A stretch of DNA of 64,000 nt from Paracoccus albus. GTDB taxonomy: Bacteria; Pseudomonadota; Alphaproteobacteria; Rhodobacterales; Rhodobacteraceae. Positions 42,671-59,981 of this stretch are shown one piece after another; positions within the stretch are counted from its first letter, which is position 1, and each line of letters opens with the position of its first letter. Position numbers and translations under genes: made by a program. The stretch lies in contig NZ_CP115777.1 of assembly GCF_027913035.1 (NCBI RefSeq), positions 1 through 64,000 on the forward strand, given 5' to 3'. The notes under the pieces are model-generated. The model had not been told where the DNA came from and searched no databases. It saw nothing but the letters and a program-made list of their open reading frames with translations.

Positions 42671-43423
42671 TCACCTTCGTCAAATATGCTCGGGGTGAGC
42701 CGCGTCAGCGGCGAGGGGCAGACAGCCCCTTTTCTTTCTGCTTGTCGGTTACCGTATTGTGGATAGCGTTTTGCGGGTTCAGATGTGGGTGCCGGAAACT
42801 CCTTTGTGCGGCTCCCCGTCCCTTGTCCGGGGACCGTGCCCTAATCTCGGCCGCTGCGCGCCCTCGATCCGAGCCAGTCAGGGCGATGCGACCGGCTGCG
42901 GCTTCTGCGGTCTGTCTCGTCCCGAGCCAGATCCTCGCGCGCCGGTCCTGGTCGCCCTGCCCTGCCCGTCTCGGCCCATCCGGGTCACGGTCACTGGCGC
43001 GGGTGCCAATGGCGATCGCATCGCCCTGCAACTACTGCCGATCAGGATCTGGTAGCCCGCGCCGGGGCGCGGGCTGCTGTCGGCCGGGGGATTCGGCCAA
43101 AGGCCGAACGCCCCGGCTTTGCCTGGGCCACGTCGCGCGTGCGCGCCGCATCCTGGATTGAGGGCCTGTTCCGGCCCTCTTTCCAAGGGGTGGGTCCTCG
43201 CCATGCTCGCTTCCTCCACCTGCGCCTGGCGGCTTGGTTCCGTGCTGCTGCGCGTGGCTCCGGTCCCGGCTGCGCCGCCCTTGGAAATTCACCGACCCGG
43301 TTCGCCACCTGGCAAGGCTTCAGGAGAGGGCGCGCTGCGCGCTTCTCGCCTGAAACCTTCGCCCATTATGGGCACCCCGACCGAGGCAAAGACCAAGGCG
43401 GGAATGTCGCGAAAAAGGAGAGC
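42671..43423 (+). repeat. Structured leader repeat, copy 1 (full length)
   Basis: 753 bp ending at the ribosome site of the DUF3768 gene, near-identical over most of its length to 59220-59981. It opens with a terminator hairpin (GGGGC-AGACA-GCCCC-TTTTCTTT, 42715-42737). Later stems include AGCCCGCGC/GCGCGGGCT (43054-43075, loop CGGG), a nested GCCGGGG/CCCCGGC helix (about 43080-43115), GAGGGCC/GGCCCTC, and the long-range TTTCCAAGGG/CCCTTGGAAA pair (43180-43189 with 43278-43287). Confidence 0.85.
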
Positions 43424-43894
43424 ATGATGCTCGACACCGATAAACTGACCTACGCTTGCCGGGCCTGCTGGCATATCTTCGACGCCATCGAACAGCCGGA
43501 ACAGTGCCCAAAATGCGCCGCCAACGGCCAGCCGCGTGACTTTCCGACGCTCGAAACCGACCTTATTGCCCGGCAGAACGACGCTTTCCGCAAGGGGATG
43601 ATCGATGGACTGCCCCGCGACATGCTTGGCCTGATCGTCAGCACGCCGGGCGTTCGTGCCATGGGACGCGATTTTGAAACCGCCGCCTATGTCTCTGTCT
43701 CCAAAGACACGGTTTTCAGTGAGGCCAATGACCCTTGGGGCGCGCGTGATTTCGGGACCGTGATCGTCAACGGCACGAAGGTCTGGTGGAAGATCGACCT
43801 GTACAACAACGACTTTGACGCGGGCTCCGAAGCGCCTTGCGATCTCGCGCAGACCCGCCGCCTCGTCACCATCCTCTTGCCGTCAGAATACTGA
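43424..43894 (+). CDS. DUF3768 protein with N-terminal zinc ribbon
   Basis: 156 aa from ATG 43424 (another ATG follows at once), preceded by AAAAAGGAG. The first 35 residues contain YACRACWHIFDAIEQPEQCPKC, a rubredoxin-like CxxC...CxxC. The rest matches DUF3768 (RQNDAFRKGM, DNDPWGARDFGT-like ANDPWGARDFGTV, KVWWKIDLYNNDF, RRLVTILLPSEY). The family is common on alphaproteobacterial conjugative plasmids near ardC and parB-like genes. Function unknown. Confidence 0.85.
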   Translation: MMLDTDKLTYACRACWHIFDAIEQPEQCPKCAANGQPRDFPTLETDLIARQNDAFRKGMIDGLPRDMLGLIVSTPGVRAMGRDFETAAYVSVSKDTVFSEANDPWGARDFGTVIVNGTKVWWKIDLYNNDFDAGSEAPCDLAQTRRLVTILLPSEY

Positions 43895-44013
43895 CCCCCG
43901 GATCGGCCCGCTCCGCTCCGTGCGGGCCGAGGTTGGCCTGTCGAGCAGGCCCAACGGGGAGGGACGGCCAACGTCCCCCCCACCCATCCCGAACCTGAAA
44001 GGAGGTGAGACGA

Positions 44014-44121
44014 ATGGATGAATGGCTGCAAGCGCGTATCGCGGAAGCATGGGCGCTTGTCAGGAAGGGCGACACCTTTGGCATTGGACGCCGCTTCCTG
44101 ATTCAGCACGGGGCAATCTGA
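44014..44121 (+). CDS. 35-aa small protein
   Basis: MDEWLQARIAEAWALVRKG followed by DTFGIGRRFLIQHGAI. It has a perfect AAAGGAGGTGAG ribosome site, which is the main support. An amphipathic helix is likely. It sits between the DUF3768 and ParB-like genes in the same orientation. Function unknown. Confidence 0.6.
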   Translation: MDEWLQARIAEAWALVRKGDTFGIGRRFLIQHGAI

Positions 44122-44127
44122 TTGCCC

Positions 44128-44154
44128 GCTCTGTCCCCCAAAAGGGGGCAGAGC
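44128..44154 (+). promoter_or_regulatory. Strong hairpin upstream of the ParB-like gene
   Basis: GCTCTG-T-CCCCC (44128-44139) pairs with GGGGG-CAGAGC (44144-44154) around an AAAA loop. It ends 42 bp before the ATG and overlaps the region right after the 35-aa gene. It could be a terminator without a T-run or an mRNA or ssDNA structural element. Confidence 0.55.
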
Positions 44155-44196
44155 ACCAATAACACAAACCAACTTCGCGAAAAAAGGATAATCACC

Positions 44197-46065
44197 ATGA
44201 AAACCGAAAAGAACGTCGTCGCCGCCCCGGTCCAGTATTTCCCGCTTGATCGGCTCTATCTGTCGGATATGAACCCGCGTCAGGACGCGGATGCCGAGCG
44301 CATTGACCTGCTGGCTGACAGCATCATTGCCTGCGGCCTGATCCAGAACCTTGCCGGGCTTGCCGATGCCGATGGACGCATTGCTATCGTCGCCGGGGGC
44401 CGCCGCCTTCGCGCCCTGATCCGCGCATTCGAAAAGCAGCCCGATCTGCTGGACCGCCGCCCGGAACTGGCCGAAATTCCCGTCAGGATTGCGCCCGACG
44501 ACGCGACCGCCCGTGCATGGGCGAATGTCGAAAATGCCGTCCGCGAGGCGCTGAACCCCGCCGATGAAATCCGCGCCTTCGCCAAGATGCGGGATGCTGG
44601 CGCAGATGTGCCCACCATCGCCAAAACCTTCGCCACGAGCGAGGCCGCAATCTATCGCCGTCTCGCCCTATCGGACCTGCCTGCGCCGGTTCTGGCCGCT
44701 CTGAAAGCGGGAAAAATCACCCTGAATATCGCCAAAGCGTTCACCGTCGCAAATGATCCTGACCTTGCGCTTGAGGTGCTGGCCGAGGTTGAGGGCAACC
44801 CTCATGCTTCCGAGCACCGCGTCAAGGCAAGGTTACAGCCGGAGGCTGTCAAGCTGACCGACCGCCGTGCTGCCTTTGTCGGTCTGGATGCCTATACCGC
44901 CGCAGGCGGCGAAGTCACCCGTGATCTGTTCGAGGAAAACGGCACCTATCTGCAAAACCCCGACCTTCTCGACCGCCTGTTTGCGGAGAAGCTGGAAGAT
45001 GCCGCCACCGCAATCGAGGCCGAAGGCTGGAAATGGATTGAAGTCATTCCCGAAAGCTATGTCAGCTACAATATCATCGAAAAGCTGACGCGGCTCTACA
45101 AGGTCGAGGTCGAACTGACCGAGGAACAGGCCGAGCGGTATGATGAACTGGCCGAACTCTATCAGGCCGATGCGCTTGATGAAGAAGGCGGAGCCGAACT
45201 TGAAGCTTTGCAGGAACTGGCCGAGGGCGACTATACCGACGAACAGCGTCAGCACGCAGGCGCTTACGTCTATGTGAATAGCAGCGGCATGGTTGACGCC
45301 TCGCGCGGCTATGTCCGCCCCGAGGACCACGCCGCTGCCGTCGAGGCCAAAATCCTGACCGGCTTCGCCGCGTCCAGCGGCCATGCTGGCAGTGCCGACG
45401 ACACGCCGAAATCGCCCTATAATGCGGCACTGGTCGAGGACATGCGCCGCGCCCGCCTTCACGCCGTTCAGGCGGCGCTGCTGGCAAAGCCGGAACTCGC
45501 TCTCGACCTGCTGGCCTTCGGCCTGTCGGCGCAAAGTGGCCATGACAGCGTGTTCAATATCCGCCCGGATCGCGCCAACATCACCCCCGAGAAGGCCAAT
45601 GGCCTGACCCCGGAGCCGCGCCTGTCGGGTGACGGCGAACATCACCGCTGGCTTGACGACGAAGAACGCCTCACGGCCTTCACCGACTTCCAAGCCGAAG
45701 GCAAGAAGGCCCGCAATGCCGCACTGACCGAGGGGCTGGCCCGGACCCTGCCCTATCCGATGCAGAAAAGCGCACTGTTCGACCACATCGAGGCCAGCAC
45801 CGGCGCCGACCTGCGCCAAGTCTGGACCCCAACCGCCGAGGGCTTTTTCAAGCGCGTGAATGCCGACTATCTCGACAGCCTCATGCTGGACCTGACCGGC
45901 TGCAATCCGACCAGGAACGGCTTCAAATCGTGGAAGGCGATGAAGAAGTCCGCAAAGGCCGACGCCCTCGAAAAGCTGTTCACCGATCCCGACTATCAGA
46001 AGGCGTGGCACATCGACGTCGAGAAAAAGGCACGGATCGACGCATGGCGTCCCGGCTGCATCTGA
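44197..46065 (+). CDS. ParB/RepB/Spo0J-family plasmid protein
   Basis: 622 aa from ATG 44197. Residues 10-110 form the ParB N-terminal domain (FPLDRLYLSDMNPRQDADAE, VAGGRRLRALIRAF, the GGRR-type CTP-binding motif, and RAWANVENAVREALNPADE). A KorB/HTH-like domain follows (VPTIAKTFATSEAAIYRRLAL). The long remainder is specific to large plasmid ParB-like proteins and contains an acidic middle segment. The protein is not next to a ParA, so it may be a leading-region regulator or nuclease-type ParB rather than a partition protein. TCGCGAAAAAAGGA before the start is shared with the repeated leaders. Confidence 0.85.
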   Translation: MKTEKNVVAAPVQYFPLDRLYLSDMNPRQDADAERIDLLADSIIACGLIQNLAGLADADGRIAIVAGGRRLRALIRAFEKQPDLLDRRPELAEIPVRIAPDDATARAWANVENAVREALNPADEIRAFAKMRDAGADVPTIAKTFATSEAAIYRRLALSDLPAPVLAALKAGKITLNIAKAFTVANDPDLALEVLAEVEGNPHASEHRVKARLQPEAVKLTDRRAAFVGLDAYTAAGGEVTRDLFEENGTYLQNPDLLDRLFAEKLEDAATAIEAEGWKWIEVIPESYVSYNIIEKLTRLYKVEVELTEEQAERYDELAELYQADALDEEGGAELEALQELAEGDYTDEQRQHAGAYVYVNSSGMVDASRGYVRPEDHAAAVEAKILTGFAASSGHAGSADDTPKSPYNAALVEDMRRARLHAVQAALLAKPELALDLLAFGLSAQSGHDSVFNIRPDRANITPEKANGLTPEPRLSGDGEHHRWLDDEERLTAFTDFQAEGKKARNAALTEGLARTLPYPMQKSALFDHIEASTGADLRQVWTPTAEGFFKRVNADYLDSLMLDLTGCNPTRNGFKSWKAMKKSAKADALEKLFTDPDYQKAWHIDVEKKARIDAWRPGCI

Positions 46066-46077
46066 CGAAAATGGCAA

Positions 46078-46096
46078 GGGCGGCTTGCGCCGCCCC
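46078..46096. terminator. Hairpin after the ParB-like gene
   Basis: AGGGCGGC-TTGC-GCCGCCCC type stem directly after the stop codon. Similar GGGCGGC stems follow other genes in this region (55029, 59197, 61080). No T-run, so termination strength is uncertain. Confidence 0.45.
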
Positions 46097-46124
46097 TGCC
46101 TGTCCGAACAGGGAGATTTCCACG

Positions 46125-46358
46125 ATGCCCGACTTTACCACTCATCGCCACCCGGTTCTGGCCGTTGGGTGCCCGACCTGCTGTAAGCCGCCGGGGGTGT
46201 GGTGCCGCCGCCCGAGCGGCCACCGCGCGGGCGATCTTCACCAGGGTCGAAAGGCCGAGGCTGACCGCGTGTTCATCGCACAGCATGGCGACACTGCCAG
46301 CATCCTGCGTACCGCCGCCGGCTGGCAAATCGACCCGCGCGGCCGCATTCGCGATTAG
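46125..46358 (+). CDS. 77-aa zinc-finger-like protein
   Basis: MPDFTTHRHPVLAVGCPTCC, then KPPGVWCRRPSGHRAGDLHQ, then GRKAEADRVF. The CPxC...PGxxC...H...R pattern is a small zinc-binding fold found on plasmids and phages of this group. GGGAGA lies ahead of the ATG. Its 3' end overlaps the convergent nuclease gene by four bases. Function unknown. Confidence 0.65.
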   Translation: MPDFTTHRHPVLAVGCPTCCKPPGVWCRRPSGHRAGDLHQGRKAEADRVFIAQHGDTASILRTAAGWQIDPRGRIRD

Positions 46359-46762
46359 CCACACCATCCGGGCCGGGCGCCGCCGTCATATGGTCGCGCA
46401 TGTCCCACACGGATCATTGCCCTTGCCACGTCCTCGCCATCGAGGGCGAGCCTTGCCAGACCGCGCCCATATCGGTCCAGTTCCGGCGCGATCCTCAATT
46501 CTGCCCGCTGCGCGGCAGCGAGGCGCCCGCGCAGCGCATCTCTTGCCGCCCGCGCCGCCGCCAGTTCAGCCGGGCATTGCGGGCTGAACAGTTCGGGAGT
46601 ATCCAGTCCTTGCAGCCGGATGCGCTGACCCTGCCATCGGATCGTGTCCCCATCGACTACCTGAATTTCGGCAGGGTCAACGCCCATTGGTGCCCGACAG
46701 CCGGTGACAGCCAGGGCCAGCCCTGTCATCATCACCACTGTCTTGACCCATCCGCCGCTCAT
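46355..46762 (-). CDS. Thermonuclease (SNase-like) lipoprotein
   Basis: 135 aa. The N-terminal lipobox MTGLALAVTGC predicts a lipid-anchored periplasmic protein. The SNase fold motifs are IQVVDGDTIRWQGQRIRLQG, DTPEL and ELDRYGRGLARLAL. These are calcium-dependent DNA/RNA nucleases. Plasmid copies are often entry-exclusion or transfer accessory proteins (as in ParB/YncB types). The catalytic Arg and Glu positions are at least partly present (RLQGLDTPE, ELDRYGR). Confidence 0.88.
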   Translation of the reverse strand: MSGGWVKTVVMMTGLALAVTGCRAPMGVDPAEIQVVDGDTIRWQGQRIRLQGLDTPELFSPQCPAELAAARAARDALRGRLAAAQRAELRIAPELDRYGRGLARLALDGEDVARAMIRVGHARPYDGGARPGWCG

Positions 46763-47142
46763 TACTGCATCCTCTCAAGCCCTGGCTGTCACCATTTGCC
46801 CGGATTTCGGGCTGGTCGTCGAAGCCAACCACCCCAAAATCCGGGCCGGCCCTTCGGGCCGAGCCGCGCTTCGCGCGGCGATCGCCAGCCCATCATCAAA
46901 GATCGCGCCCGGCTGTTAACCTGGCCGTCGCTGCCGCGCCGGCCAGGGCCGGGCAGCACACCACATACGGTCTTGTCATTCTACCATGCGGTTCAAGGAC
47001 GGCGCCGGGCAAGCCCGGCTTGCAAGCGCCCGTGCCGGGCGTCCCTGACCTCGCATGTCCGTCTGCCGGCGACCGTGCGCGGCGGGCATTTGCCTTTCGC
47101 GGGACACGGTTTCATCCTATATTACCATCAAGGAGACCATTC
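46763..47142. other. Hairpin-rich gene-free stretch
   Basis: Contains several stems with short loops, including GGCCC-TTC-GGGCC (about 46850), GCCGCGC-TTC-GCGCGGC (about 46862) and GCCGGGC-AA-GCCCGGC (about 47012). The style resembles the structured leaders elsewhere in this half of the window. No coding signal. Confidence 0.45.
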
Positions 47143-47346
47143 ATGACCGACGCCGATGCAATCAAGCACGAAGCCGAAATCGCAAACCTGAATGCGAACA
47201 CCGCAAAGCTTCAGGCCGAAATGTCGAAACTGCTGGCCGAAGGCAAGCAGATCAAGGTCAGCACCTTCCTTGCCCCCTTCCTGGCCGCCGCGGCCGTCAT
47301 GGGCGGCGGCGCCGCCCTCGCCCGCCTTTTCTTCATCGGCTCATGA
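47143..47346 (+). CDS. 67-aa coiled-coil and membrane-anchor protein
   Basis: AAGGAG precedes the ATG at 47143. Residues 5-40 are a helical heptad-like region (AIKHEAEIANLNANTAKLQA, EMSKLLAEGKQ) and 44-65 one hydrophobic segment (LAPFLAAAAVMGGGAALARLF). Small membrane proteins with this layout occur near phage-like lysis or transfer genes. Not otherwise recognised. Confidence 0.6.
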   Translation: MTDADAIKHEAEIANLNANTAKLQAEMSKLLAEGKQIKVSTFLAPFLAAAAVMGGGAALARLFFIGS

Positions 47347-47572
47347 ACTCAGCGGCTTCGCGGTCTGATCCGTCCAGATCCAGCAGTCTGCGCGACCGCA
47401 GGAGCCGCTTGCGGCAGAAAATCCTTGTCTAGCAATCGGATACAGGCGATCTTCACCTCGAACGACACGCCACCTGGGGAATGCAGGTTCATGGTCTTGC
47501 CTCCCGGGTGTTTGCCGGAACACAATCACATCCGGGTCGGCGCGTTAAGTGCCTGCATGCGAGGACAAGCCA

Positions 47573-48496
47573 ATGGCGATCGATTTGAGCGAAGACAGGA
47601 CCATTGCGCTGAAGCGAAATGGCAAGAAGCTCTGGTCCTGGAAGGGCAGCGATCCAGATGTCGTCGAGATCGCAGTGCTCCATTACCTGCGCGATCACGG
47701 ATGGGACGGGTTTTTCACCGGTCGGGAAGATTATTATGGGCTGATCATCGCCCTGGCCGGCTGGCCGGGAAAGGTATCGAACAAGATGAACCCGGCCTTC
47801 ACCCCGAGCTTCGTCTATTTCCGCGGCACGGACGGCTTGTTTCGCCAGCATCGCTATTCATACGACAAGACGATGCGCTTCATGAGGTCGATCACGCTGG
47901 CTGAAATGGAGGAGCGGCTGCGCGTCGTCTGCGCCGGAAAGAAGTGGAAGCGCGCCTATTATTCGACGAATAATCAACAGCCGGATCACCTCATCTCCTT
48001 TCTGCATGCGGTAGGCATGGATAAAATCCGCGAGATCGTCGAAAGCAATTATACAAAGGAGAAACTGGCGGCACAGAAGACGCTTGGTGAACTCGACTAC
48101 AGCCTCGATCATTTGAGATGGCCGAAAATTGGCGATAATTATCCCGAAGCGAGAAGCACGGGCGAATTTCCCCGATTGGAATGGGCTGTTCGTGACTACG
48201 AATTCGGTGAGCGCGACCTGATCGCCCAAGCCAGGGCTTTCGCCAGCCATCTGCCCTCCGAGGTGCGGCAAGTTGCATCGTCAGCCATTGATTTCGCGGA
48301 GGCTTACCGACAAGGGATCTGGGACAGCGATACCGGATCAGCACTCGATCTGAAGTTGTGGAACGCCAAAGGCCTTGCGATCGCCGAGGTCAAGGCACCG
48401 AACGATCGCCTCAGGCCACGTCAGAGGAAGACTATTGACCATGCCCGCAGCCAAGGCTCCCAGGCATGCGTGATATCGGTCGTCGAGGACGTCTAG
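47573..48496 (+). CDS. VRR-NUC domain protein
   Basis: 307 aa from ATG 47573 with GAGGA upstream. The C-terminal 60 residues match a VRR-NUC (FAN1/phage-type) nuclease: GSALDLKLWNAKGLAIAEVKAPNDRL with the D...E-x-K catalytic set, then PRQRKTIDHARSQGSQACVISV. The N-terminal part (DVVEIAVLHYLRDHGWDGFF and a long helical middle) is family-typical. It probably cleaves DNA structures. Plasmid copies could act in repair or defence; substrate unknown. A cell-intrinsic promoter was not identified. Confidence 0.8.
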   Translation: MAIDLSEDRTIALKRNGKKLWSWKGSDPDVVEIAVLHYLRDHGWDGFFTGREDYYGLIIALAGWPGKVSNKMNPAFTPSFVYFRGTDGLFRQHRYSYDKTMRFMRSITLAEMEERLRVVCAGKKWKRAYYSTNNQQPDHLISFLHAVGMDKIREIVESNYTKEKLAAQKTLGELDYSLDHLRWPKIGDNYPEARSTGEFPRLEWAVRDYEFGERDLIAQARAFASHLPSEVRQVASSAIDFAEAYRQGIWDSDTGSALDLKLWNAKGLAIAEVKAPNDRLRPRQRKTIDHARSQGSQACVISVVEDV

Positions 48497-48516
48497 CGAA
48501 AATTATTCGCAAAGCT

Positions 48517-48725
48517 ACTTGTTGCCACTCGCCGGCACGTTCTCGACCTGGCCAGCCTGCGATCCAGCGTCCTTCGATCCATCCTCGCCATCCTTCCCGG
48601 CAGCCGCACCGCTTTCCTTCTCCGCCTTGCCACCGTGGATCACCGTCAGGTTGGTGCCGCGCCGGATGCGGCCATAGGCCTGCTCGACGCCGAGATCGTC
48701 GAGCGTCTCGGCGATCCGCTCTAAT
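48517..48725 (-). pseudogene. C-terminal fragment of an unrecognised protein
   Basis: The minus strand reads LERIAETLDDLGVEQAYGRI, RRGTNLTVIHGGKAEKESGA and AGKDGEDGSKDAG to a TAG, with no start codon and a hydrophilic tail. The 5' part is missing beyond 48725. The full-length family could not be named; a conjugation-associated protein is a guess only. Confidence 0.4.
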
Positions 48726-48751
48726 GTGACGACTTGTGATGGATCTGGCTT

Positions 48752-48949
48752 CTAACCTTTGTCTGTATATTGATGCGCGGCCATCAGGTTCTTGCGCAGG
48801 AATGCGATTGCAACCTCCAGCTTTTTGGGCCGCCAGTTGCTGGCCGGCCAGATCAGGTGAAAATCGGCACAAGTCGTCACATTAGAACATCCGCCCGCCA
48901 TGAAGGCGCAGGTCAAGCAAAGAATGCCGATGCTGTAAAATTCATACAA
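48752..48949 (-). CDS. 65-aa putative small lipoprotein
   Basis: MYEFYSIGILCLTCAFMAGGC is a short hydrophobic signal with an AGGC lipobox (Cys21), followed by a polar 44-residue tail (NLMAAHQYTDKG end). The size and lipobox resemble Rz1-like or entry-exclusion lipoproteins. No clear ribosome site, so support is limited. Confidence 0.4.
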   Translation of the reverse strand: MYEFYSIGILCLTCAFMAGGCSNVTTCADFHLIWPASNWRPKKLEVAIAFLRKNLMAAHQYTDKG

Positions 48950-48966
48950 AAGTCCGGTGAAATTCC

Positions 48967-49173
48967 GATGCGCCTCCCCGTCCTCTGTCCGGGGACCGTG
49001 CCCTAGGCTTGTCCGGCAAGCCGGCCTGCGCCCCGAGCCGTTCAGGGCGATGCGACCGGCTGCGGCTTCTGCGGTCTGTCTCGTCCCGAGCCAGATCCTC
49101 GCGCGCCGGTCCTGGTCGCCCTGCCCTGCCCGTCTCGGCCCATTCGGGTGACGGTCACTGGCGCGGGCGGGGG
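48967..49173 (+). repeat. Structured leader repeat, copy 2 (partial)
   Basis: 207 bp matching about 42795-43005 of copy 1, including the nearly invariant block CGATGCGACCGGCTGCGGCT through GGTCACTGGCGCGGG. One internal stem-forming stretch is replaced by another (GGCTTG-TCCGG-CAAGCC). It lacks the 3' half and is followed by no intact plus-strand gene, so it is probably a decayed copy. Confidence 0.75.
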
Positions 49174-49680
49174 CACGAAGCGGCGCCAGAGTCTGCAGTC
49201 GCTGCCCTGCCTGCCCTCCAGATCGTCATCCCGCCGCCGGGCCATGCCGTCATTCGGGAAGATGCGACTGTTGCCTGCGCCTGGTGATTTCCCCGGCCTC
49301 GTTGGATCGAGCGATGCGCCTGCACAACCGCCAGTTCCTGCCGTCTTTTTCGTACGATTGACAGGGATGACGGTCCCGAAGCCATGCGTTCCGTTCATGT
49401 GGTTTTTCTATCTGATGAAACCTAGCAGGCAGTCGGGGCAGACCGGCACATGCTGCCATGCGGCATGTGCCTTCAACGACTAATTTCCCCTGGCCTGCGG
49501 CCATTCCTCGCGTGTAGATTCGCAAGATGATTTGCCGCGCCACGGTGCATGAACTTCGAAAAGCACCGACAACGTGTCAGGCATTCTTGCTTCATCTGCC
49601 ACGCAATCTTGCCGCTACAAGGTCGCGGCCGCTGTTCGGCTGCGGTTCATACATCTCTTTCGAAGCCCCATGTCTGTCTT
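49174..49680. other. Degenerate stretch with gene and palindrome remnants
   Basis: The minus strand at about 49270-49400 aligns patchily with the small gene at 54823 (shared EKDG and NEAGEIT, plus FPN in another frame) but has shifts, so it is a dead copy. At 49445-49512 lies a hairpin (GGCACATGC/GCATGTGCC) followed by a partial copy of the nested palindrome found upstream of nrdH. Confidence 0.55.
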
Positions 49681-51628: not shown

Positions 51629-52435
51629 TTATTGAAGTTGGCGGCGAAGAAGAGCGCCGACCTGATCGACCACGGTGACCATCAGAAGAACGACCAGCAT
51701 GATGGCAAGAACCTCCTGATAATTCATAATCCGAAGAGAGGTCATCAGCTCAAAGCCGATGCCGCCGGCTCCGACCGTGCCAAGGATGGTGGAGGCGCGG
51801 AAGTTATACTCCCAACGGTAGATCGTGACATCGGCCAGTTGAGGCAGGACTTGCGGCAGGATTGCGCGCGTGACGATCTGGAAGGGTGAAGCACCGGCGG
51901 CCCGCGCCGCCTCGATTGGCGCATTGTCACAATGCTCGATGGCTTCTGCAAAGAACTTTCCGACCATGCCAACGGAGTGAAGGCCTAGAGCAAGAACGCC
52001 GGGCAGAGCCCCGAAGCCTACCGCTGCAACGAAAACGATACCCATGATCAACTCAGGGATCGAGCGCAGGCCGTTCAGCAGGCCGCGGGCGATCATGTAG
52101 ATAACGCGGTTTGGCGCTGTTTTTCGCGAAGCGCAAAAGCCAACGGGAAGCGAAATCAGAACCGCGATTGCCGTCCCGGCGATGCTCATGGCAAGAGTAT
52201 CAACCAAGGGGCCGATCCACTCCATCCCACGGCTGAAATCGGGCGGAACCATTTCACTTCCCAACTGCCAAAGCGAAGGAAGGCCGGAACCAAGCCGCTC
52301 CAGATCAAGCAAGCCGGAGTGGTAGCTGCTGACAATGATGACGCCAGCGATGATCACCGCGATCACGGCAGCGCGCTTCCAAGCTCTACTTTGGCGCTGA
52401 AGGATGCTGTCGAAACTTTGGGAAAGCGCTGTCAT
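51629..52435 (-). CDS. ptxC: Phosphite ABC transporter permease PtxC
   Basis: 268 aa with about six membrane segments and the EAA loop EAARAAGASPFQIVTRAILPQ of binding-protein-dependent permeases. It belongs to the PhnE/PtxC branch. It sits 21 bp upstream of ptxD. Confidence 0.92.
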   Translation of the reverse strand: MTALSQSFDSILQRQSRAWKRAAVIAVIIAGVIIVSSYHSGLLDLERLGSGLPSLWQLGSEMVPPDFSRGMEWIGPLVDTLAMSIAGTAIAVLISLPVGFCASRKTAPNRVIYMIARGLLNGLRSIPELIMGIVFVAAVGFGALPGVLALGLHSVGMVGKFFAEAIEHCDNAPIEAARAAGASPFQIVTRAILPQVLPQLADVTIYRWEYNFRASTILGTVGAGGIGFELMTSLRIMNYQEVLAIMLVVLLMVTVVDQVGALLRRQLQ

Positions 52436-52502
52436 TGACGTGCTCCTGAAAAGTGAGGCGCAGACTTCGCCTGCGCCCGCAATGAATGGCGGTTGATATG
52501 TC

Positions 52503-53351: not shown

Positions 53352-54163
53352 AGGGCGGCCTCCATGGCAGCAACAGGTTGTGGTTGGGAGTGGGATGAAT
53401 GGTGATGCGCTTGCTGCGAACTCCGGCCTGAAGCTTCGCTGCGGTAGATCGAGGCGCACATCTGATCTGTCAGTTCATCAACGGACGCATCTGCGACTAC
53501 AGAGCCATCACGCATGGCGATGACCCGATCACCAAAGCGCCTCGCCAAGTCGATCTGGTGCAGGCTGATGACAGCCGTTATGCCATCCGTCGTGCAAATG
53601 TGGCGGAGTTGCGAAAGGACTTCGACGGCTGTTTCCGGATCGAGGCTGGCCACAGGTTCGTCAGCCAGTATCAATCGGGGCTGCTGAACCAGAGCACGGG
53701 CGATGCCGACACGTTGCTGTTGGCCGCCCGACAACTGGTCAGCCCTCACCAAGGCTTTGTCGAGCAAGCCAACCCGAGCAAGACATTCCAGCCCAAGTTG
53801 CCGGTCAGAACGCGGAAGAGGAAAGAGGGTTCGAAAGGATGAGTGATAGCCCAAGCGACCGGTCATCACATTATCAAGCGCGCTCAAGCGCCCGATGAGC
53901 TGGTGCTGCTGGAAAATCATCCCGGTGCGCCTGCGGTGCACTCGGAGCGCCCGCTCTCCGTCCAGAGATCCAACGCCATCAGCGATAATCGAACCGGACG
54001 TAGGAGCAACTAAGCCGTTAAGGGTGCGGATGAGTGTGGATTTACCCGCGCCAGAGCGGCCCAAAAGGACGACAAACTGCCCCTGCGCGAGCTTCAGCGA
54101 GGTCGGTTTTAGAGCTTGTGTGCCATTCCCATAGGTCACGGCAACCCTGTTCAAAGCCAACAT
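53348..54163 (-). CDS. ptxA: Phosphite ABC transporter ATPase PtxA
   Basis: 271 aa. Walker A GRSGAGKST, Q-loop near IFQQHQLI, signature LSGGQQQRVGIARAL, Walker B RLILADEPVASLD and the H-loop in ISLHQIDLA. It closely follows PhnC/PtxA. First gene of the operon. The C-terminus has an unusual His/Gln/Ser-rich tail (QQAHHHSSHSQPQP) overlapping the ptxB signal-peptide start. Confidence 0.93.
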   Translation of the reverse strand: MLALNRVAVTYGNGTQALKPTSLKLAQGQFVVLLGRSGAGKSTLIRTLNGLVAPTSGSIIADGVGSLDGERALRVHRRRTGMIFQQHQLIGRLSALDNVMTGRLGYHSSFRTLFPLPRSDRQLGLECLARVGLLDKALVRADQLSGGQQQRVGIARALVQQPRLILADEPVASLDPETAVEVLSQLRHICTTDGITAVISLHQIDLARRFGDRVIAMRDGSVVADASVDELTDQMCASIYRSEASGRSSQQAHHHSSHSQPQPVAAMEAAL

Positions 54164-54214
54164 GATGATGCATCTTTCTAATCGTTCTGCGGTCGCGATA
54201 GGATGGGTCGATCA

Positions 54215-54262
54215 CTAGGCGCGCAATATGACGACTACTTTTCAGGTGGATGACATAATCAT
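54215..54262 (-). promoter_or_regulatory. Possible PHO-box half sites upstream of ptxA
   Basis: On the minus strand TGTCAT and CGTCAT occur 22 bp apart (two 11-bp periods), about 60-90 bp before the ptxA start. PhoB binds 11-bp direct repeats of this kind. The match is short and no middle repeat is convincing. Confidence 0.3.
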
Positions 54263-54322
54263 GATAATGCACATCGATGCTTATGCTGCACTCTACCTAA
54301 AATCCTTGGAAGCGGACGCGGT

Positions 54323-54344
54323 GATCGCGGTTATGGCCGCGATC
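54323..54344. repeat. 8-bp inverted repeat near the start of the ptx operon
   Basis: GATCGCGG (54323-54330) and CCGCGATC (54337-54344) around TTATGG. It may be a terminator or operator. It marks the outer side of the ptx segment. Confidence 0.4.
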
Positions 54345-54822
54345 GCTGATCGGAAGGACAGCCGCGCCTCCGCTCCGCTCTGGCACGTCCGACACCTTTC
54401 CGTTTGCTAGGTCCGCCTGCCATCCGGCCGGCGCTCTGAACACGGGCTCTGGTGCCGCTGCGCGTCAGCCTCCACGGAGAAATCCGGTTCCTCCCGCGCC
54501 AGGGCGCGGGCCCCTCCCAATTTCACCGCTCCGGCCCCGTGTGTCAGATCACCGTCCGGCCGCAGGTCGGGCTGCGCCCACCCTGCTTTGCCCTTCGGAT
54601 GACATGAGGTCATCCAAAGTGAAAAGCACGGATGGCTTCGCCACTCGGCGGATCAGAAGGGCACGAACGGGAAATGTCGGAAACACACGCACGAGGTAGT
54701 TTCGTGACGCAAAAGGCAGTTTTGCGCAGTGTTCACATCGCGAAAGAAATTAGCCGCTGACAGCCCCTTTCCCTACCCACTCTGTCGTTTTCATCGAAAA
54801 ACCCATGGAAAGGAACTTCAAG
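54345..54822. other. Gene-free junction between ptx and the plasmid backbone
   Basis: No gene supported. GC-rich left half. At 54755-54769 AAATTAGCCGCTGAC resembles the right arm of the nested palindrome at 58862-58919. The remainder is leader for the small gene at 54823. Confidence 0.4.
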
Positions 54823-55017
54823 ATGGCTTCTCAAAACTTCACCCTCAAAGTCAAAGCCGGCGAAAAAGACGGCACGACCTTCTGGGATCGCTGCGGCGTG
54901 GTCTTCGTGAACACCAACGAGGCCGGGGAAATCACCTCCATCAGCGTTCGTCACAACATGTTCCCGAATGTCGACATGGTGGCCTTCCCGCGTCGGGAAA
55001 AAGACGAGCAGGAATAA
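54823..55017 (+). CDS. 64-aa conserved plasmid protein
   Basis: The start at ATG 54823 is preferred over 54805 because AAGGAA lies 8 bp upstream. Beta-rich text: MASQNFTLKVKAGEKDGTTF, WDRCGVVFVNTNEAGEITSI, SVRHNMFPNVDMVAFPRREK. A degenerate second copy lies on the other strand near 49.3 kb, showing the gene belongs to the repeated backbone module. Function unknown. Confidence 0.7.
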   Translation: MASQNFTLKVKAGEKDGTTFWDRCGVVFVNTNEAGEITSISVRHNMFPNVDMVAFPRREKDEQE

Positions 55018-55028
55018 GGGCAGGCAAA

Positions 55029-55048
55029 GGGGCGGCGCAAGCCGCCCC
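55029..55048 (+). terminator. Hairpin after the 64-aa gene
   Basis: GGGGCGGC (55029-55036), GCAA loop, GCCGCCCC (55041-55048), starting 11 bp after the stop codon. Strong stem without T-run. Confidence 0.5.
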
Positions 55049-55075
55049 TGGACCGTTTCACGAGCCCAGGTCGGA

Positions 55076-55453
55076 AGCCCGCGCTGATGCGCGGGCTGCT
55101 GTCGGCCGGGGGATTCGGCCAGAGGCCGAACGCCCCGGCTATGCGTGGGCCACGTCACGCTGACGCGCGCCGCGTCCTGGATAAAGGGCCTGTTCCGGCC
55201 CTCTTTCCAAGGGGTGGGTCCTCGCCATGCTCGCTTCCTCCACCTGCGCCTGGCGGCTTCGGTTCCGTGCAGCTGCGCGTGGCTCCGGTCCCGGCTTCGC
55301 CGCCCTTGGAAATTCACCGGCCCGGTTCGCCACCTGGCAAGGCTTCAGGAGAGGGCGCGCTGCGCGCTTCTCGCCTGAAACCTTCGCCCATTATGGGCAC
55401 CCCGACCGAGGCAAAAGACCAAGGCGGGAACGTCGCGAAAAAAGGAGATTAGA
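55076..55453 (+). repeat. Structured leader repeat, copy 3 (3' half)
   Basis: 378 bp matching 43054-43423 and 59604-59981. The same stems are present: AGCCCGCGC/GCGCGGGCT with loop TGAT, the nested GCCGGGG/CCCCGGC helix, GGGCC-TGTTCC-GGCCC, the TTTCCAAGGG/CCCTTGGAAA pair (55204-55213 with 55303-55312), and GCCCAT/ATGGGC near the end. It ends in TCGCGAAAAAAGGAGATTAGA before the start codon. Confidence 0.85.
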
Positions 55454-55720
55454 ATGGTTCTCTTTGAATTTTACGCCATGACCGACGATTTCGGCATCTG
55501 CCGCGATGCCTGCGATGATCTGGAAAGCTGGATCGCGGCCAATGACGCCGAAATCACCGGCTATGTCGATGATCCCCTCGCCAGCAAGGAATTGCAGGGA
55601 CTGCCGAAGCTCAGCGGCTGGATCGGCCCGATTGTCGGCCCCAATGCCTTCGGCCTGACCCCGGTTATTCAATATGCCGATACCTGGGCCGTCCGCGAAA
55701 TCGACCGCGTGGGGGCATGA
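55454..55720 (+). CDS. 88-aa hypothetical protein, first gene of the leader-3 operon
   Basis: MVLFEFYAMTDDFGICRDAC begins an acidic protein with two Cys (C17, C21) and DDLESWIAANDAEITGYVDD. GGAG precedes the ATG directly after leader copy 3. Its stop overlaps the next start. Not recognised. Confidence 0.75.
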   Translation: MVLFEFYAMTDDFGICRDACDDLESWIAANDAEITGYVDDPLASKELQGLPKLSGWIGPIVGPNAFGLTPVIQYADTWAVREIDRVGA

Positions 55721-55926
55721 ACATGGCCGCTTTCGACAAGCCCATCACCGCCAGCTTTGACCTGGCCGAGATCTCGGCCATCCTCGCTGGCCTGCGGTTG
55801 CTTCAAGGTTCCAACCGGGTGCCGGCGCCGATCACCGAGATCATGACCAATGGCGGCGACATTGACCCGCTATCGCTGGATGAGATCGACGCGCTTTGCG
55901 AGCGCATCAACGGCGGGGATATGTGA
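55717..55926 (+). CDS. 69-aa hypothetical protein
   Basis: MNMAAFDKPITASFDLAEISAILAGLRLL continues into an acidic C-terminus (SLDEIDALCERINGGDM). Coupled by four-base overlap with the previous gene and one-base overlap with the next. Probably helical. No family recognised. Confidence 0.7.
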   Translation: MNMAAFDKPITASFDLAEISAILAGLRLLQGSNRVPAPITEIMTNGGDIDPLSLDEIDALCERINGGDM

Positions 55927-56399
55927 TGATCCCCTATTCCGTCCTTCAATCCGATCATCAGCCCGGCGCTTTCGTAATCACTGTGGTCAGCGCACGCGCG
56001 GCCCAGATCTATGCCCGCCTGCTGGCCGAACGCTTTCCCGGCAACAAATTCGCCATTCAGGAAGGCGGTGCATGGGGCGCGCCCGATTGCCACCCTTCCA
56101 TCCGCGATAGCGCCCGTTCGTTCGAGGTGGAACGTCTCGCGGCGACCATGCTCAAGCGGGACGCAGAAACCAACCCCGAAGGGCTGGCGAAGTGGCACGT
56201 CTATTTCCTTCGCCGCCCCGATACCGCAGCGACAACCCGCTGTCGCGCATATGCCGACCATGACACGCCGATGCGGAGCCGCACGTTTTCAAGCCCCGAT
56301 TATATCGGAACCGCAATTTTCTATGGCGATCTGCCAACCCCGCATGACCTCGGCGTCATGCTGGAGGATTTCCAAGCCAGCAAGGAGGCCATCGCATGA
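55926..56399 (+). CDS. 157-aa hypothetical protein
   Basis: MIPYSVLQSDHQPGAFVITVVSARAAQIYARLLAERFPG. Mixed alpha/beta composition, with RRPDTAATTRCRAYADHDTP in the middle. Sits in the tightly overlapping operon 55454-58281. No family recognised. Confidence 0.7.
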   Translation: MIPYSVLQSDHQPGAFVITVVSARAAQIYARLLAERFPGNKFAIQEGGAWGAPDCHPSIRDSARSFEVERLAATMLKRDAETNPEGLAKWHVYFLRRPDTAATTRCRAYADHDTPMRSRTFSSPDYIGTAIFYGDLPTPHDLGVMLEDFQASKEAIA

Positions 56400-56848
56400 G
56401 CCCCATTTCCTTCAACGGACTTTCGGCGGGGGATAGCCCCGCCAGCTTCCGGCGCTTCTGTGTTTCGCCCGTGCGGATCGAGCGCGGCAACCACTATGAT
56501 GAGGCCATCGAGGTTTGCCCCCCTGCGGAACGCGCCTTCTGGTCGATCTATGGCGACACCGGCCAAGGCTGGCAGCTTGTCCATGATGCCCAGGACGGCG
56601 AGGCTGGCCGCGCCCTGCTGGCGCTTGAGGTCGCGACCGGCGCACCCGTCCACTATGTCGATTGCGACTGGCGCAGTACCGGCGGGACTGTCGCGGGGCT
56701 GGCCGACCGACTGGCCGAGCGCATCCATGACGAGATCCCCGGATATGATGGCCCCGAGGATTTCCGCGATGACGATTTCGAAAATCATCCGCTGGCCGAG
56801 CTGCGCGAACTGCTGCTGGATGCCACCAACGGGGAGGATCAGAAATGA
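56396..56848 (+). CDS. 150-aa hypothetical protein
   Basis: Acidic protein, MSPISFNGLSAGDSPASFRR, with ERAFWSIYGDTGQGWQLVHD and a strongly acidic tail (GYDGPEDFRDDDFENHPLAE). Acidic small proteins in leading regions can be DNA mimics, but nothing here proves that. Overlaps both neighbours by four bases. Confidence 0.7.
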   Translation: MSPISFNGLSAGDSPASFRRFCVSPVRIERGNHYDEAIEVCPPAERAFWSIYGDTGQGWQLVHDAQDGEAGRALLALEVATGAPVHYVDCDWRSTGGTVAGLADRLAERIHDEIPGYDGPEDFRDDDFENHPLAELRELLLDATNGEDQK

Positions 56849-58281
56849 ACGCCCCGCTGTCCTTCAATGCAGGGGCGCTTGTCGCGCCCCTCAACATCGA
56901 GGCCATTTGCATGATGCGCGAACGCGCGCTGTCCGAGATGGAAGAGGCTATTGCCGCTATTGCGAAGGGCTACGCCCTCGCGCGCGGCGCGGCCGAGACC
57001 GCCAAGGGCGCGACCGCCGGTCACGCCTCTTACCTGCACTACGACGACAACCAGACCGTCGAAAAATCCCTCTATCCCGATTTCGACACCGAAAAGACCT
57101 TCGCCACCTACAAGCGCACCCTGGATGCCGCAATCTGGCGCCGCATCGTCGAGGAAACCCGCCTCAAGGAAATCATGGACCGCACCGAACGCGACCAGCT
57201 CGACAAGCAGATGGCCGCAAACGACATGCCGGAACCGACATTCGAGACGATCCGGGCCACCCTCGCCCGCCTGACCGGCGAGGCCAACCTGATCTTTCAG
57301 CGCGGCGTGGCGCGCGCCTTCGCGTCACTGTCGCCCGCCTTCAAGAGCCACGACGCCTTCAAGATCAACAAGCGCATGATCTTCGAATGGGTGTTCAGCG
57401 AAGGGGGGTACTGGTCCTATTCTGGACATGGCGAACAGATGCGCCGCACCTTGGCCGACGTTGAGCGGGTGTTTTCGCAGCTTGCCGGCAACCGGACCTA
57501 TGGCGCGCTTGAGCACGCCATCGAGGTTAGCCGACGCGGCCGCTACGGCGCACGGCAGGGCGAGGTCGAAAGCGAATATTTCCTCGCCCGCACCTTCAAG
57601 AATGGAAACCTGCATCTCTGGATCAAGGATGAAACCCTGTTGCGGAAGGTGAACCGCGTGCTGGCCGATTATTACGGCGAGGTGCTGCCCGACGCCGCCG
57701 GCGCCGAGGCGCAGCCCGCCGATTTCTGGCCGGGCACCGCGCTTGCAAAGGATCTGGCCTTCTATCCGACCCCGGCCGAAGTCGTCGACTACCTGCTTGA
57801 CGGGCTGCGGATCGAACCGGGCGCGCGGATCCTGGAACCAAGCGCCGGCGTCGGCGCGCTCGTCCGCCCCCTGCTGGCGCAGGGCGCGAACGTCGACGCG
57901 ATCGAGGTCCATCCCGACCGGACCGAGGCTCTGCGCGGCATCGCCCACCCCGCCCTGAGCGTGAAATGCGCGAACTTCCTGAAGCTGCCCGCCCGGCCGG
58001 TCTATGATTATGTCGTCATGAACCCGCCGTTCGCCGGGACACATTTCATGAATCATCTGAGGCATGCCTTCGACTTCCTGAAGCCGGGCGGCGAGCTGCG
58101 CGCGATCCTGCCCGCCTCTGCCGAGGTCGGCAGCACCGCAAAGCACGAACGCTTTCGGGCATGGGCCGAGAGCCATGCCCCGCGCGGCTGGCGGCGCGGT
58201 CTCTGGCGAGACCTGCCGGCCGAGAGCTTCGCCAGTGTCGGCGTGCGCATCAATACGGTGGTCCTCACCCTGACAAAGTGA
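56845..58281 (+). CDS. DUF4942 protein with N6-adenine-type methyltransferase domain
   Basis: 478 aa. Residues about 1-280 are the DUF4942 region (INKRMIFEWVFSEGGYWSYS, ADVERVFSQLAGNRTYGALE). The C-terminal domain is a methyltransferase: FYPTPAEVVDYLLDGLRI, ILEPSAGVGALVRPLLAQGA for SAM binding, and YVVMNPPFAGTHFM with the NPPF catalytic motif. A plasmid-borne orphan methyltransferase probably modifies incoming DNA to avoid host restriction. Last gene of the operon, followed by a terminator. Confidence 0.88.
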   Translation: MNAPLSFNAGALVAPLNIEAICMMRERALSEMEEAIAAIAKGYALARGAAETAKGATAGHASYLHYDDNQTVEKSLYPDFDTEKTFATYKRTLDAAIWRRIVEETRLKEIMDRTERDQLDKQMAANDMPEPTFETIRATLARLTGEANLIFQRGVARAFASLSPAFKSHDAFKINKRMIFEWVFSEGGYWSYSGHGEQMRRTLADVERVFSQLAGNRTYGALEHAIEVSRRGRYGARQGEVESEYFLARTFKNGNLHLWIKDETLLRKVNRVLADYYGEVLPDAAGAEAQPADFWPGTALAKDLAFYPTPAEVVDYLLDGLRIEPGARILEPSAGVGALVRPLLAQGANVDAIEVHPDRTEALRGIAHPALSVKCANFLKLPARPVYDYVVMNPPFAGTHFMNHLRHAFDFLKPGGELRAILPASAEVGSTAKHERFRAWAESHAPRGWRRGLWRDLPAESFASVGVRINTVVLTLTK

Positions 58282-58319
58282 TACCGTTCCCTAACCTTTT
58301 TTCGCGAAAAGGCACTTTA

Positions 58320-58344
58320 GCCCCGCTTCGGCGGGGCATTTTTC
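58320..58344 (+). terminator. Rho-independent terminator
   Basis: GCCCCGC (58320-58326), TTCG loop, GCGGGGC (58331-58337), then ATTTTTC. It ends the 55454-58281 operon. Confidence 0.85.
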
Positions 58345-58358
58345 TTTGGAGGCGTTTC

Positions 58359-58616
58359 ATGATGATTTTCGTATTTCTCGTTGGCACAGCGGTTGCGCTG
58401 CTTGGTTTGTGGCTCACCTGGAAAAGCCCTGACAAAACAAAGGCTCCAAAGTACATTGCAGTTATCGGGCTGGTGATGATGTGTATTCCGTTGGCCGACT
58501 GGCTTTTGACAGATGATCAGGGCCATGGAGCCACCAGCACGGGTTATGACGAGTGCATAGCTGACGGAGGCTCCTGGCTAGGAGGATCATGTATGCCAAT
58601 GGTCGGGTCCGACTGA
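58359..58616 (+). CDS. 85-aa two-helix membrane protein
   Basis: GGAGG lies seven bases before ATG 58359. Two hydrophobic helices (MMIFVFLVGTAVALLGLWLT and YIAVIGLVMMCIPLADWLL) are followed by a Gly/Cys-rich tail (ECIADGGSWLGGSCMPM). Possible entry-exclusion or envelope protein. Not recognised. Confidence 0.65.
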   Translation: MMIFVFLVGTAVALLGLWLTWKSPDKTKAPKYIAVIGLVMMCIPLADWLLTDDQGHGATSTGYDECIADGGSWLGGSCMPMVGSD

Positions 58617-58834
58617 CCTTGCTCGCAGACAGTGCCCGGCACCTGAAATCACCACCCGCCGACCGCCGCTTTCCGTGGCATGTCGTCGTCTTCGGTCAGG
58701 TCAACAGCGAACGGCCGCGCGCTTTGCCGGGCGGTGGCGGTGCATTGCCGTCGCAGCTGGATCCGGCGTCACATGGCTGTTCTCCTTTGCTTCCCAACTG
58801 TGACCCTGGCCGAAGCGGCTGGTGGGCGGTGCGC

Positions 58835-58919
58835 ATCATGCCCTTGGCATGATTCACCCCTTCAACAGCTAATTTCCCCTGGCCTATGGCCATTCCTCGC
58901 GAGGCAAATTAGCTGTTGA
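58835..58919. repeat. Hairpin plus 58-bp nested palindrome upstream of nrdH
   Basis: A first stem ATCATGCC-CTT-GGCATGAT (58835-58853) is followed by a perfect 14-bp outer stem, TCAACAGCTAATTT (58862-58875) with AAATTAGCTGTTGA (58906-58919). The outer stem encloses two smaller palindromes, TGGCC-TAT-GGCCA (58880-58892) and CCTCGCGAGG (58895-58904). Folded, it is a three-way junction. The right arm contains TTGAC, a possible -35 element. A decayed copy with the same preceding hairpin layout is at 49445-49512. Confidence 0.85.
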
Positions 58920-58975
58920 CCACCACCCTGATGCTTCGACCCAAAACAGGTTCACAGAAGCAAAGGAGAACAGCC

Positions 58976-59194
58976 ATGAGCATCACCGTCTATTCCAAGC
59001 CCGCCTGCGTGCAATGCACCGCCACCACCCGCAGCCTCGACGCAAAAGGCGTCGCCTATACGGTTGTTGACCTGACCGAAGACGACGACGCGCTGCGCTT
59101 CGTTGAAAGCCTGGGCTATCGGCAGGCCCCCGTGGTGATTTCAGGTGCCGACCACTGGTCCGGCTTCCGCCCCGATCGCATCGCCGCCCTCTAG
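58976..59194 (+). CDS. nrdH: NrdH-like glutaredoxin
   Basis: 72 aa, AAAGGAG before the ATG. Redox CxxC in SKPACVQCTATTR and the NrdH-specific WSGFRPD near the C-terminus. NrdH donates electrons to class Ib ribonucleotide reductase. No nrdEF is nearby, so here it may support dNTP supply or general redox in the recipient after transfer. A GGGCGGC-type hairpin follows the stop. Confidence 0.85.
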   Translation: MSITVYSKPACVQCTATTRSLDAKGVAYTVVDLTEDDDALRFVESLGYRQAPVVISGADHWSGFRPDRIAAL

Positions 59195-59219
59195 GGCGGC
59201 TTTGCCGTCCCTTCGCCCA

Positions 59220-59981
59220 TCACCTACTTCAAATATCCTCGGGGTGAGCCGCATATGCGGCGAGGGGCAGACAGCCCCTTTTCTTTCTGCTTGTCGGTTA
59301 CCGTATTGTGGATAGCGTTTTGCGGGTTCTGATGTGCCTGCCGGAAAACTCCTTTCTGCGCCTCCCCCTCCTTCGTCCGGGAACCGTGCCCTAATCTCGG
59401 CCGCTGCGCGCCCTCGATCCGAGCCATTCAGGGAGATGCGACCGGCTGCGGCTTCTGCGGTCTGTCTCGTCCCGAGCCAGATCCTCGCGCGCCGGTCCTG
59501 GTCGCCCTGCCCTGCCCGTCTCGGCCCATTCGGGTGACGGTCACTGGCGCGGGCGCCAATGGCGATCGCATCGCCCTGCAACTACTGCCGATCAGGATCT
59601 GGTAGCCCGCGCCTATGCGCGGGCTGCCGTCGGCCGGAGGATTCGTCCGGAGGCCGAACGCCCCGGCTTTGCCTGGGCCACGTCACGCTGGCGCGCGCCG
59701 CGTCCTGGATTGAGGGCCTGTTCCGGCCCTCTTTCCAAAGGGTGGGTCCTCGCCATGCTCGCTTCCTCCACCTTCGCCTGCGGCTTCGGTTCCGTGCAGC
59801 TGCGCGTGGCTCCGGTCCCGGCTGCGCCGCCTTTGGAAATTCACCGGCCCGGTTCGCCACCTGGCAAGGCTTCAGGAGAGGGCGCGCTGCGCGCTTCTCG
59901 CCTGAAACCTTCGCCCATTATGGGCACCCCGACCGAGGCAAAAGACCAAGGCGGGATCGTCGCGAAAAAAGGAGGCCACAA
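59220..59981 (+). repeat. Structured leader repeat, copy 4 (full length)
   Basis: 762 bp homologous end to end with 42671-43423. Terminator stem GGGGC-AGACA-GCCCC-TTTTCTTT at 59264-59286. AGCCCGCGC/GCGCGGGCT at 59604-59625 with loop CTAT. TTTCCAAAGG (59732-59741) pairs with CCTTTGGAAA (59830-59839), a compensated G-C to A-T change against copy 1. It ends in TCGCGAAAAAAGGAGG before ardC. Confidence 0.87.

Follow-up and report, generated by a model that had tools for sequence, protein, structure and literature searches.

Two-module structured leaders in a Paracoccus plasmid leading region appear to fold on the transferred DNA strand

Long structured repeats stand directly before several genes in a 64,000-nucleotide stretch of Paracoccus albus DNA (hereafter the window), which comprises bases 1-64000 of contig C3, a plasmid-like contig of 111,649 bp in a genome with five contigs. 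We give an even chance to the reading that these leaders are bipartite folded elements of a plasmid leading region, whose functional fold would form in the transferred single DNA strand and would most likely start RNA synthesis. Judged by wobble asymmetry, by folding energy corrected for composition and by the types of loop, the fold seems, on statistical support from sequence comparison, to be under selection on the strand complementary to the mRNA and not in the mRNA. A preliminary description of the window had left two readings side by side, a shared regulatory RNA or single-stranded DNA, and of the two a fold in single-stranded transferred DNA is better supported than one in mRNA.

Leader anatomy and covariation

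Two separately conserved modules, A (~170 nt) and B (~370 nt), make up each leader, and B reaches the ribosome-binding site of the adjoining gene (Table 1). The preliminary description had reported a four-copy family. The repeats are real: 42671-43420 and 59220-59973 align over their full length with 94% identity, 55073-55447 corresponds to the 3' part (95%), and 48969-49169 to an internal part (90%). The number of leaders is nevertheless three and not four, because copies 2 and 3, whose sequences run together in relatives, are halves of one leader. In three relatives compared by BLAST (P. sediminicola p1 and the genus genomes G015 and G036), window stretches 48868-49512 and 54738-55500 are contiguous with a 5-bp overlap, the second stretch being 98-99.9% identical there, and the A-B distance in this uninterrupted leader 2 is 673 nt.

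The remaining sequence details of the preliminary description were reproduced. The three complete copies stop at the common 3' end GTCGCGAAAAA(A)GGAG ahead of start codons, and DUF3768 at 43424, the 88-amino-acid (aa) open reading frame (ORF) at 55454 and ArdC at 59982 start right after it. The stem AGCCCGCGC/GCGCGGGCT is kept with the loops CGGG, TGAT and CTAT, and the matched double change from TTTCCAAGGG/CCCTTGGAAA to TTTCCAAAGG/CCTTTGGAAA was confirmed. A third, 5' part, M1, which carries a terminator-like hairpin, is present in two window leaders (1 and 3). Relatives of a short M1 element (AAATAT-CTCGGGG...GGGGCAGACAGCCCC, window 42671-42730 and 59220-59280) were observed on the chromosome at C1:1871331, 466274 and 2469084, and also in other genomes of the genus. 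Coding sequence was considered as an explanation of the leaders and rejected: the long open frames across them (for example 42742-43161, 43139-43894, 55087-55452 and 59559-60881) are not conserved, changing start or frame between copies, and were taken as GC-rich by-products. In Rfam, a search of the whole window at the gathering score gave no match in the leaders, and a search of 42400-60200 at E up to 10 gave nothing credible for them. The sole match in the window was a chrB-a RNA (RF03078, 62.4 bits) at 42261-42346 on the minus strand, outside and just upstream of leader 1.

We built covariance models from 24 (A) and 18 (B) non-redundant sequences, after dropping one divergent row of 47 from the A alignment and two of 39 from the B alignment, and searched them across genomes. 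We used 108 of the 149 A matches and 71 of the 166 B matches, leaving out duplicate locus ids, truncated or weak matches, and weak opposite-strand matches at the same places (for example window 42870-42973 on the minus strand, 29.1 bits vs 142.6). Redundancy cuts left 59 of 102 A and 48 of 68 B sequences for folds and raw pair counts, 89 A and 64 B for substitution events, 81 A and 53 B for loops, and 41 A and 25 B for shuffle-corrected energies. An ATG-initiated ORF of at least 40 aa begins within 36 nt of B in 67 of the 71 copies, mostly 5-7 nt past the model end. The proteins downstream of B form 25 k-mer clusters, many of unknown function; the largest (21 members) looks like ArdC, Pfam having been applied to the window proteins alone.

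Selection on a folded nucleic acid, which the preliminary description had proposed from the window copies, was strongly supported by this wider material, in which covariation did not vanish. Among 37 divergent A sequences aligned without regard to structure, double changes occurred in 21 of 26 RNAalifold pairs; with a RIBOSUM-scored structure, 36 of 42 pairs changed on both sides at a mean column identity of 69%. In module A, 85.3% of cells were paired vs 67.8% in shuffles, and none of 500 shuffles reached any measure. Slid versions of the structure scored far lower, a control biased in favour of the structure, which was derived from the same alignment. The module A fold comprises a long interrupted hairpin and a small constant hairpin (P4), to which wider A alignments add a closing stem CCGCGC/GCGCGG and one more hairpin. 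For module B, an alifold structure was computed from 48 sequences; the shuffle-tested covariation figures concern module A alone.

The folding strand and the transferred strand

If the coding strand folds as RNA, G-C pairs may change to G·T without loss of the fold; if the complement folds, they may change to A·C, which is G·T on that strand. Raw counts over pairs common to the folds of both strands gave 70 G-U and 92 A-C for module A and 98 and 174 for module B, as compared with 109 and 49 for RNase P from the same family. Parsimony events on a tree, Watson-Crick to G·U vs Watson-Crick to A·C, numbered 36:58 in A (p=0.03) and 51:77 in B (p=0.03), with the same sign whichever strand's fold was used. 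The RNA controls gave 87:39 for RNase P and 26:8 for the cobalamin riboswitch (30 rows oriented by table strand, at least one of them empty). Pooled A·C:G·U events were 135:87 in the leaders vs 47:113 in the RNA controls (Fisher p=1.3e-9). The pattern expected of an mRNA leader, with G-U allowed and A-C avoided on the coding strand, was thus seen in neither A nor B. Mutation bias was rejected as the source of the A·C excess, with unpaired G>A and C>T near equal (A 2.79 and 2.95, B 2.85 and 3.06 per 100); in the unpaired columns of both modules T>C is less frequent than A>G, a bias that would promote G·U rather than A·C.

Folding energies pointed to the same strand. Raw minimum energies favoured the complement in 32 of 41 A sequences with RNA energies and 40 of 41 with DNA energies, and in 24/25 and 25/25 B sequences, the RNase P figures being 1/30 and 0/30. 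Raw energies vary with composition, and we therefore computed z-scores corrected by dinucleotide shuffling. With RNA energies, z was lower on the complement in 30/41 A and 19/25 B sequences (RNase P 3/30); with DNA energies, it was lower there in 38/41 and 21/25 (RNase P 8/30).

Loop types were also assessed, GNAB being a DNA-type loop rule. On the complement, P4 loops were GAAT (12), GGAT (10), GAA (8) and GCA (4) among the 54 parsed of 81 sequences tried, and the P3 tip loop was GGA in 57 of 81. GNA triloops in perfect hairpins of B numbered 22 on the complement vs 3 on the coding strand (of 123). Perfect hairpins on the coding strand held no GNRA loops in either module and, in A, 2 UNCG loops; the RNase P control had 39 GNRA loops on the coding strand and 0 on the opposite one. 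GNA loops are described as giving exceptionally stable DNA minihairpins (PMC6479982, citing Yoshizawa 1997).

We then considered which strand is transferred. All window leaders lie on the plus strand, spanning 42.7-60.0 kb and oriented toward a relaxase gene (PF03432) just beyond the window at C3:64823-65107, also on the plus strand. A block with TGGCAGGAAATGC stands upstream of mobC in the window plasmid and recurs there in P. sediminicola p1 and P. tegillarcae pBM152; in P. aestuarii the sequence is TGGCAAGAAATGC. On the minus strand the nic-like TGGCAGGAAATGC reads GCATTTCCTGCCA, a variant that resembles but does not match the consensus for MOBP nick sites, (C/T)ATCCTG(C/T) (PMC3772185). 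A Leisingera plasmid carries the exact TATCCTGC on the minus strand just upstream of mobC, and the motif TGGCA[AG]GAAATGC stands near the start of a mobC-like ORF in 7 of 20 further plasmids, one of the 20 being a twin of pBM152. From the nic-like motif we infer that the minus strand is probably the transferred strand and the template for the plus-strand genes; with the minus strand nicked upstream of mobC, the leaders would enter first. We also take GCATTTCCTGCCA to resemble a T-DNA border, and the VirC1-like gene (62628-63344) beside this T-DNA-border-like site is a hint of a VirD2-like transfer origin.

The link to transfer that the preliminary description had suggested was strongly supported by the gene order around the leaders and by their orientation toward mobilization genes. 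All copies lay on one strand in 28 of 28 contigs with at least two A copies. Among the relaxases listed, A copies shared the strand of the relaxase in all 32 contigs with both, and the relaxase lay downstream of A within 20 kb in 24 of these 32, at a median of 6.6 kb. The order DUF3768, ParB, small ORFs, DUF4942, ArdC, ParA-like (opposite strand), mobC, relaxase is shared, complete or largely so, by three annotated plasmids (P. sediminicola p1, P. tegillarcae pBM152 and P. aestuarii p60130), and the plasmid of Leisingera sp. M658 has a related gene order with a weak module A match (31.3 bits). Repeats before genes unrelated to transfer were not seen in the annotated plasmids examined, save for one isolated fragment. 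On P. sediminicola p1 (locus L064 = 127000-139000), an isolated module B fragment was observed at record positions 133080-133219, on the opposite strand, near transposase genes and far from the leading region.

Proposed action, analogues and rival explanations

In the mechanism that we propose, the relaxase would nick just upstream of mobC and the minus strand would enter the recipient 5' end first, so that ardC, the 88-aa/DUF4942 group and DUF3768-ParB would arrive early as single-stranded template. Modules A and B would fold on the incoming minus strand, and from the folded DNA, acting as a start site specific to single strands, RNA synthesis would run into the gene next to it, in the manner of Frpo or single-strand initiation (ssi) sites. 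ArdC and its partners would be produced until the second strand is made, and production would then stop. RNA polymerase recruitment and the timing of expression are what we infer, and the promoter-like action is an economical guess, made because B touches the ribosome-binding site and the transferred strand would be the template.

The closest analogue by description may be EGeRS1 (establishment gene regulatory sequences type 1) of the Bacillus plasmid pLS20, where five conserved structured sequences of 420-750 bp, with a GC content above that of the plasmid, immediately precede the ribosome-binding sites of establishment operons, ardC among them (PMC8708921). That source describes ~325 nt conserved next to the ribosome-binding site, a less constant upstream part and no recognisable or constitutive promoter, and states that the leader mechanism is unknown; the transferred strand of pLS20 is the non-template strand, and for that reason its authors judged a single-strand promoter highly unlikely. 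The Paracoccus leaders likewise form a set of long structured copies, each adjoining the ribosome-binding site of an establishment gene, and one of these genes is ardC. Unlike EGeRS1, they occur in a different phylum, and their family is deep enough for a strand test. They also resemble the Frpo and ssi elements of F and ColIb-P9 (PMC11541004, citing Masai and Arai 1997), described as folded DNA in several copies upstream of leading-region anti-defence genes that are read from the transferred strand. Here the reading from the transferred strand would rest on the nic-like site and the relaxase-strand orientation, and the transferred-strand fold on covariation and the strand tests. Compared by description, the leaders differ from Frpo and ssi in their length (about 550-750 nt) and two modules, and a sigma-70-like -35/-10 in a stem was not found. 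The STAXI motif (PMC2864571; RF01728) is similarly described as a structured element repeated close to genes for anti-restriction and single-strand-binding proteins, with a single-stranded DNA role considered, but consists of enterobacterial pseudoknot repeats, frequently with UUCG loops, and Rfam gives no STAXI match in the leaders. A literature search, mostly without subscription papers and bioRxiv preprints, found no such elements described in Alphaproteobacteria, and the words Alphaproteobacteria and Paracoccus are absent from the main text of PMC11541004.

Several observations weigh against the proposal that the leaders fold on transferred DNA and start transcription there. A sigma-70 scan of window leaders 1 and 3 gave no sigma-70-like promoter, the sigma-70 position weight matrix upstream of A was not above shuffles (8.07 vs 8.17), and -35/-10 elements inside A and B were not above shuffles, the coding strand of both modules being below them. 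An ordinary duplex promoter was rejected on the same sigma-70 scans. As regards the Frpo-like promoter of the preliminary description, the strand evidence and the nic-like site favour its single-stranded DNA part, and its promoter part is unsupported, with no sigma-70 -35/-10 above background. As to the strand, G-U pairs are still present in the helices, each module alone reaches p=0.03 on events, and the G-U excess of RNase P may partly reflect rates that differ between bases (unpaired C>T 5.98, G>A 3.62). The sense strand also beats shuffles (mean z with RNA energies -1.9 in A, -4.0 in B). Energies discriminate less well than wobble pairs: raw cobalamin energies, on 16 of the 30 control sequences, picked the coding strand in 6/16 with RNA and 10/16 with DNA energies, and the cobalamin alifold energies were -66.2 for the coding strand vs -68.4 for the complement. 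The coding strand of B had 6 GNAB tetraloops, the complement none. The modules are not always paired (22/65 B copies without a detected A, 42/85 A copies without a detected B). Regarding transfer, a search of the 20 further plasmids gave no nic-like motif in 13, where exact consensus sites are inconsistently placed; the relaxase was not within 20 kb downstream in 8 of the 32 listed contigs; and in pLS20, whose EGeRS1 looks alike, the transferred strand is the non-template one, whereas the nic-like site would make it the template here.

The leaders might instead be cis-regulatory mRNA leaders that fold in the mRNA, which we regard as rather unlikely. Such a role would suit the end of B at a ribosome-binding site, with an ORF start within 36 nt in 67/71 copies, the sense strand that folds better than dinucleotide shuffles, and the report that, in B. 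subtilis, natively oriented EGeRS1-B stops read-through (PMC8708921). It accords poorly with the tolerance of A-C above G-U, opposite to both the RNase P and cobalamin controls, with the complement folding better after composition correction, with coding-strand hairpins that lack GNRA loops and hold two UNCG loops in A, and with zero matches of the leaders to Rfam families.

Single-strand initiation sites of the ssi/sso type, whose fold would recruit primase or RNA polymerase mainly for second-strand priming with expression following from it, share all the strand and fold evidence with our proposal, and the window copies are spread over about 21 kb beside the presumed transfer origin. Priming alone does not require a placement at gene starts, as seen for 67/71 B copies, and we hold this explanation unlikely. 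A structured antisense RNA from the complement of the leaders, which the wobble and energy tests alone cannot separate from complementary DNA, is very improbable: neither strand of leaders 1 and 3 has a promoter-like site, and the sole minus-strand terminator-like site there (43432-43420) lies at the gene end, from which an antisense transcript would start. Complement loops, moreover, are often of the GNA/GNAB DNA types and rarely GNRA, and the two strands of A are told apart more clearly with DNA than with RNA energies, B being unclear in this respect.

Distribution and neighbouring features

BLAST gave matches in 82 of 125 genomes of the genus (own included), some of them to the dispersed 5' part M1 only. 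Covariance model R1 (module A) matched 44 of the 125 genus genomes and 13 of 394 family genomes. Model R2 (module B) matched 23 of the 394 family genomes at E<=0.001 and 12 at E<1e-6, namely the own genome and those of 11 other genera; across 289 genomes of the class it matched three, namely the own genome and two weak cases. These genome counts are lower bounds, with 8-27 candidates scored per genome, and the E-values are rough. Two weak B matches (39-40 bits) lie on contigs of 0.6-1.3 Mb (G354:C1 and G508:C1). In PLSDB, 32 plasmid records were matched, 23 of them from Paracoccus and some via M1 only, and a phage origin of the leaders was rejected, a phage collection giving zero matches. A detected B followed within 2.5 kb in 43 of the 85 A copies with room for it, the window's split leader being counted as a miss, and a detected A preceded B in 43 of 65 B copies with room, weak B matches being outside this list. 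In another order of Alphaproteobacteria, ~100 nt resembling module B (75%) were observed at 8001-8090 of Roseomonas mucosa pTT14-4 (L063), on the same strand as ssb and a relaxase gene.

The insertion that splits leader 2 carries genes for LysR, a 2-hydroxyacid dehydrogenase and a phosphonate-type ABC transporter (phosphite/phosphonate-uptake type), a cargo that looks like a phosphite-use operon. No transposase was found among the five insertion ORFs checked. A 43-nt repeat with 91% identity was observed at 49470-49512 and 58859-58901, and its first copy stops exactly at the insertion point.

Table 1. Leaders and neighbouring features in the window
Feature	Position	Strand	Remarks
M1 of leader 1	42671..42798	+	Terminator-like hairpin GGGGCAGACAGCCCC-TTTT at 42713-42732
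Module A of leader 1	42833..43003	+	Covariance-model core 42868-42995
Module B of leader 1	43051..43421	+	Ends at ribosome-binding site of DUF3768 gene
DUF3768 protein (PF12599)	43424..43894	+	First gene after leader 1; Pfam
ParB-like protein (ParB_N, HTH_ParB)	44122..46065	+	Downstream of DUF3768 gene, same strand; Pfam
Module A of leader 2	48995..49167	+	Core 49032-49159
Insertion in leader 2	49513-54737		5,225 bp; 5-bp duplication TCGCG at 49508-49512 and 54738-54742
64-aa ORF between modules A and B of leader 2	54823..55017	+	No Pfam match
Module B of leader 2	55073..55447	+	Sequence comparison and covariance model
88-aa protein	55454..55720	+	First gene after leader 2; no Pfam match
DUF4942 protein (PF13708)	56845..58281	+	Downstream of leader 2, same strand; Pfam
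M1 of leader 3	59220..59347	+	Terminator-like hairpin at 59262-59281
Module A of leader 3	59383..59554	+	Core 59418-59545
Module B of leader 3	59601..59974	+	Ends at ribosome-binding site of ardC
ArdC anti-restriction protein (ArdcN, MPTase-PolyVal)	59982..60881	+	After leader 3; Pfam
VirC1/ParA-like protein	62628..63344	-	Adjoins presumed transfer origin; Pfam
Nic-like site	63925..63937	-	TGGCAGGAAATGC on +, read GCATTTCCTGCCA on -

Expression of anti-defence genes before second-strand synthesis has been worked out for few conjugative plasmids. The leader family described here is abundant and divergent enough for a sequence-based test of the folding strand, and the result points to transferred DNA. 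The comparison of G-T with A-C pairs can separate transferred-strand DNA folds from mRNA folds by sequence data alone. More tentatively, and at somewhat less than an even chance, the leaders may represent a new class of single-stranded DNA regulatory elements, two-module folds of ~0.5 kb selected as DNA on the transferred strand that would activate MOBP leading-region genes in Rhodobacteraceae without an embedded sigma-70 promoter. They are concrete elements to assay in a mobilisable plasmid.

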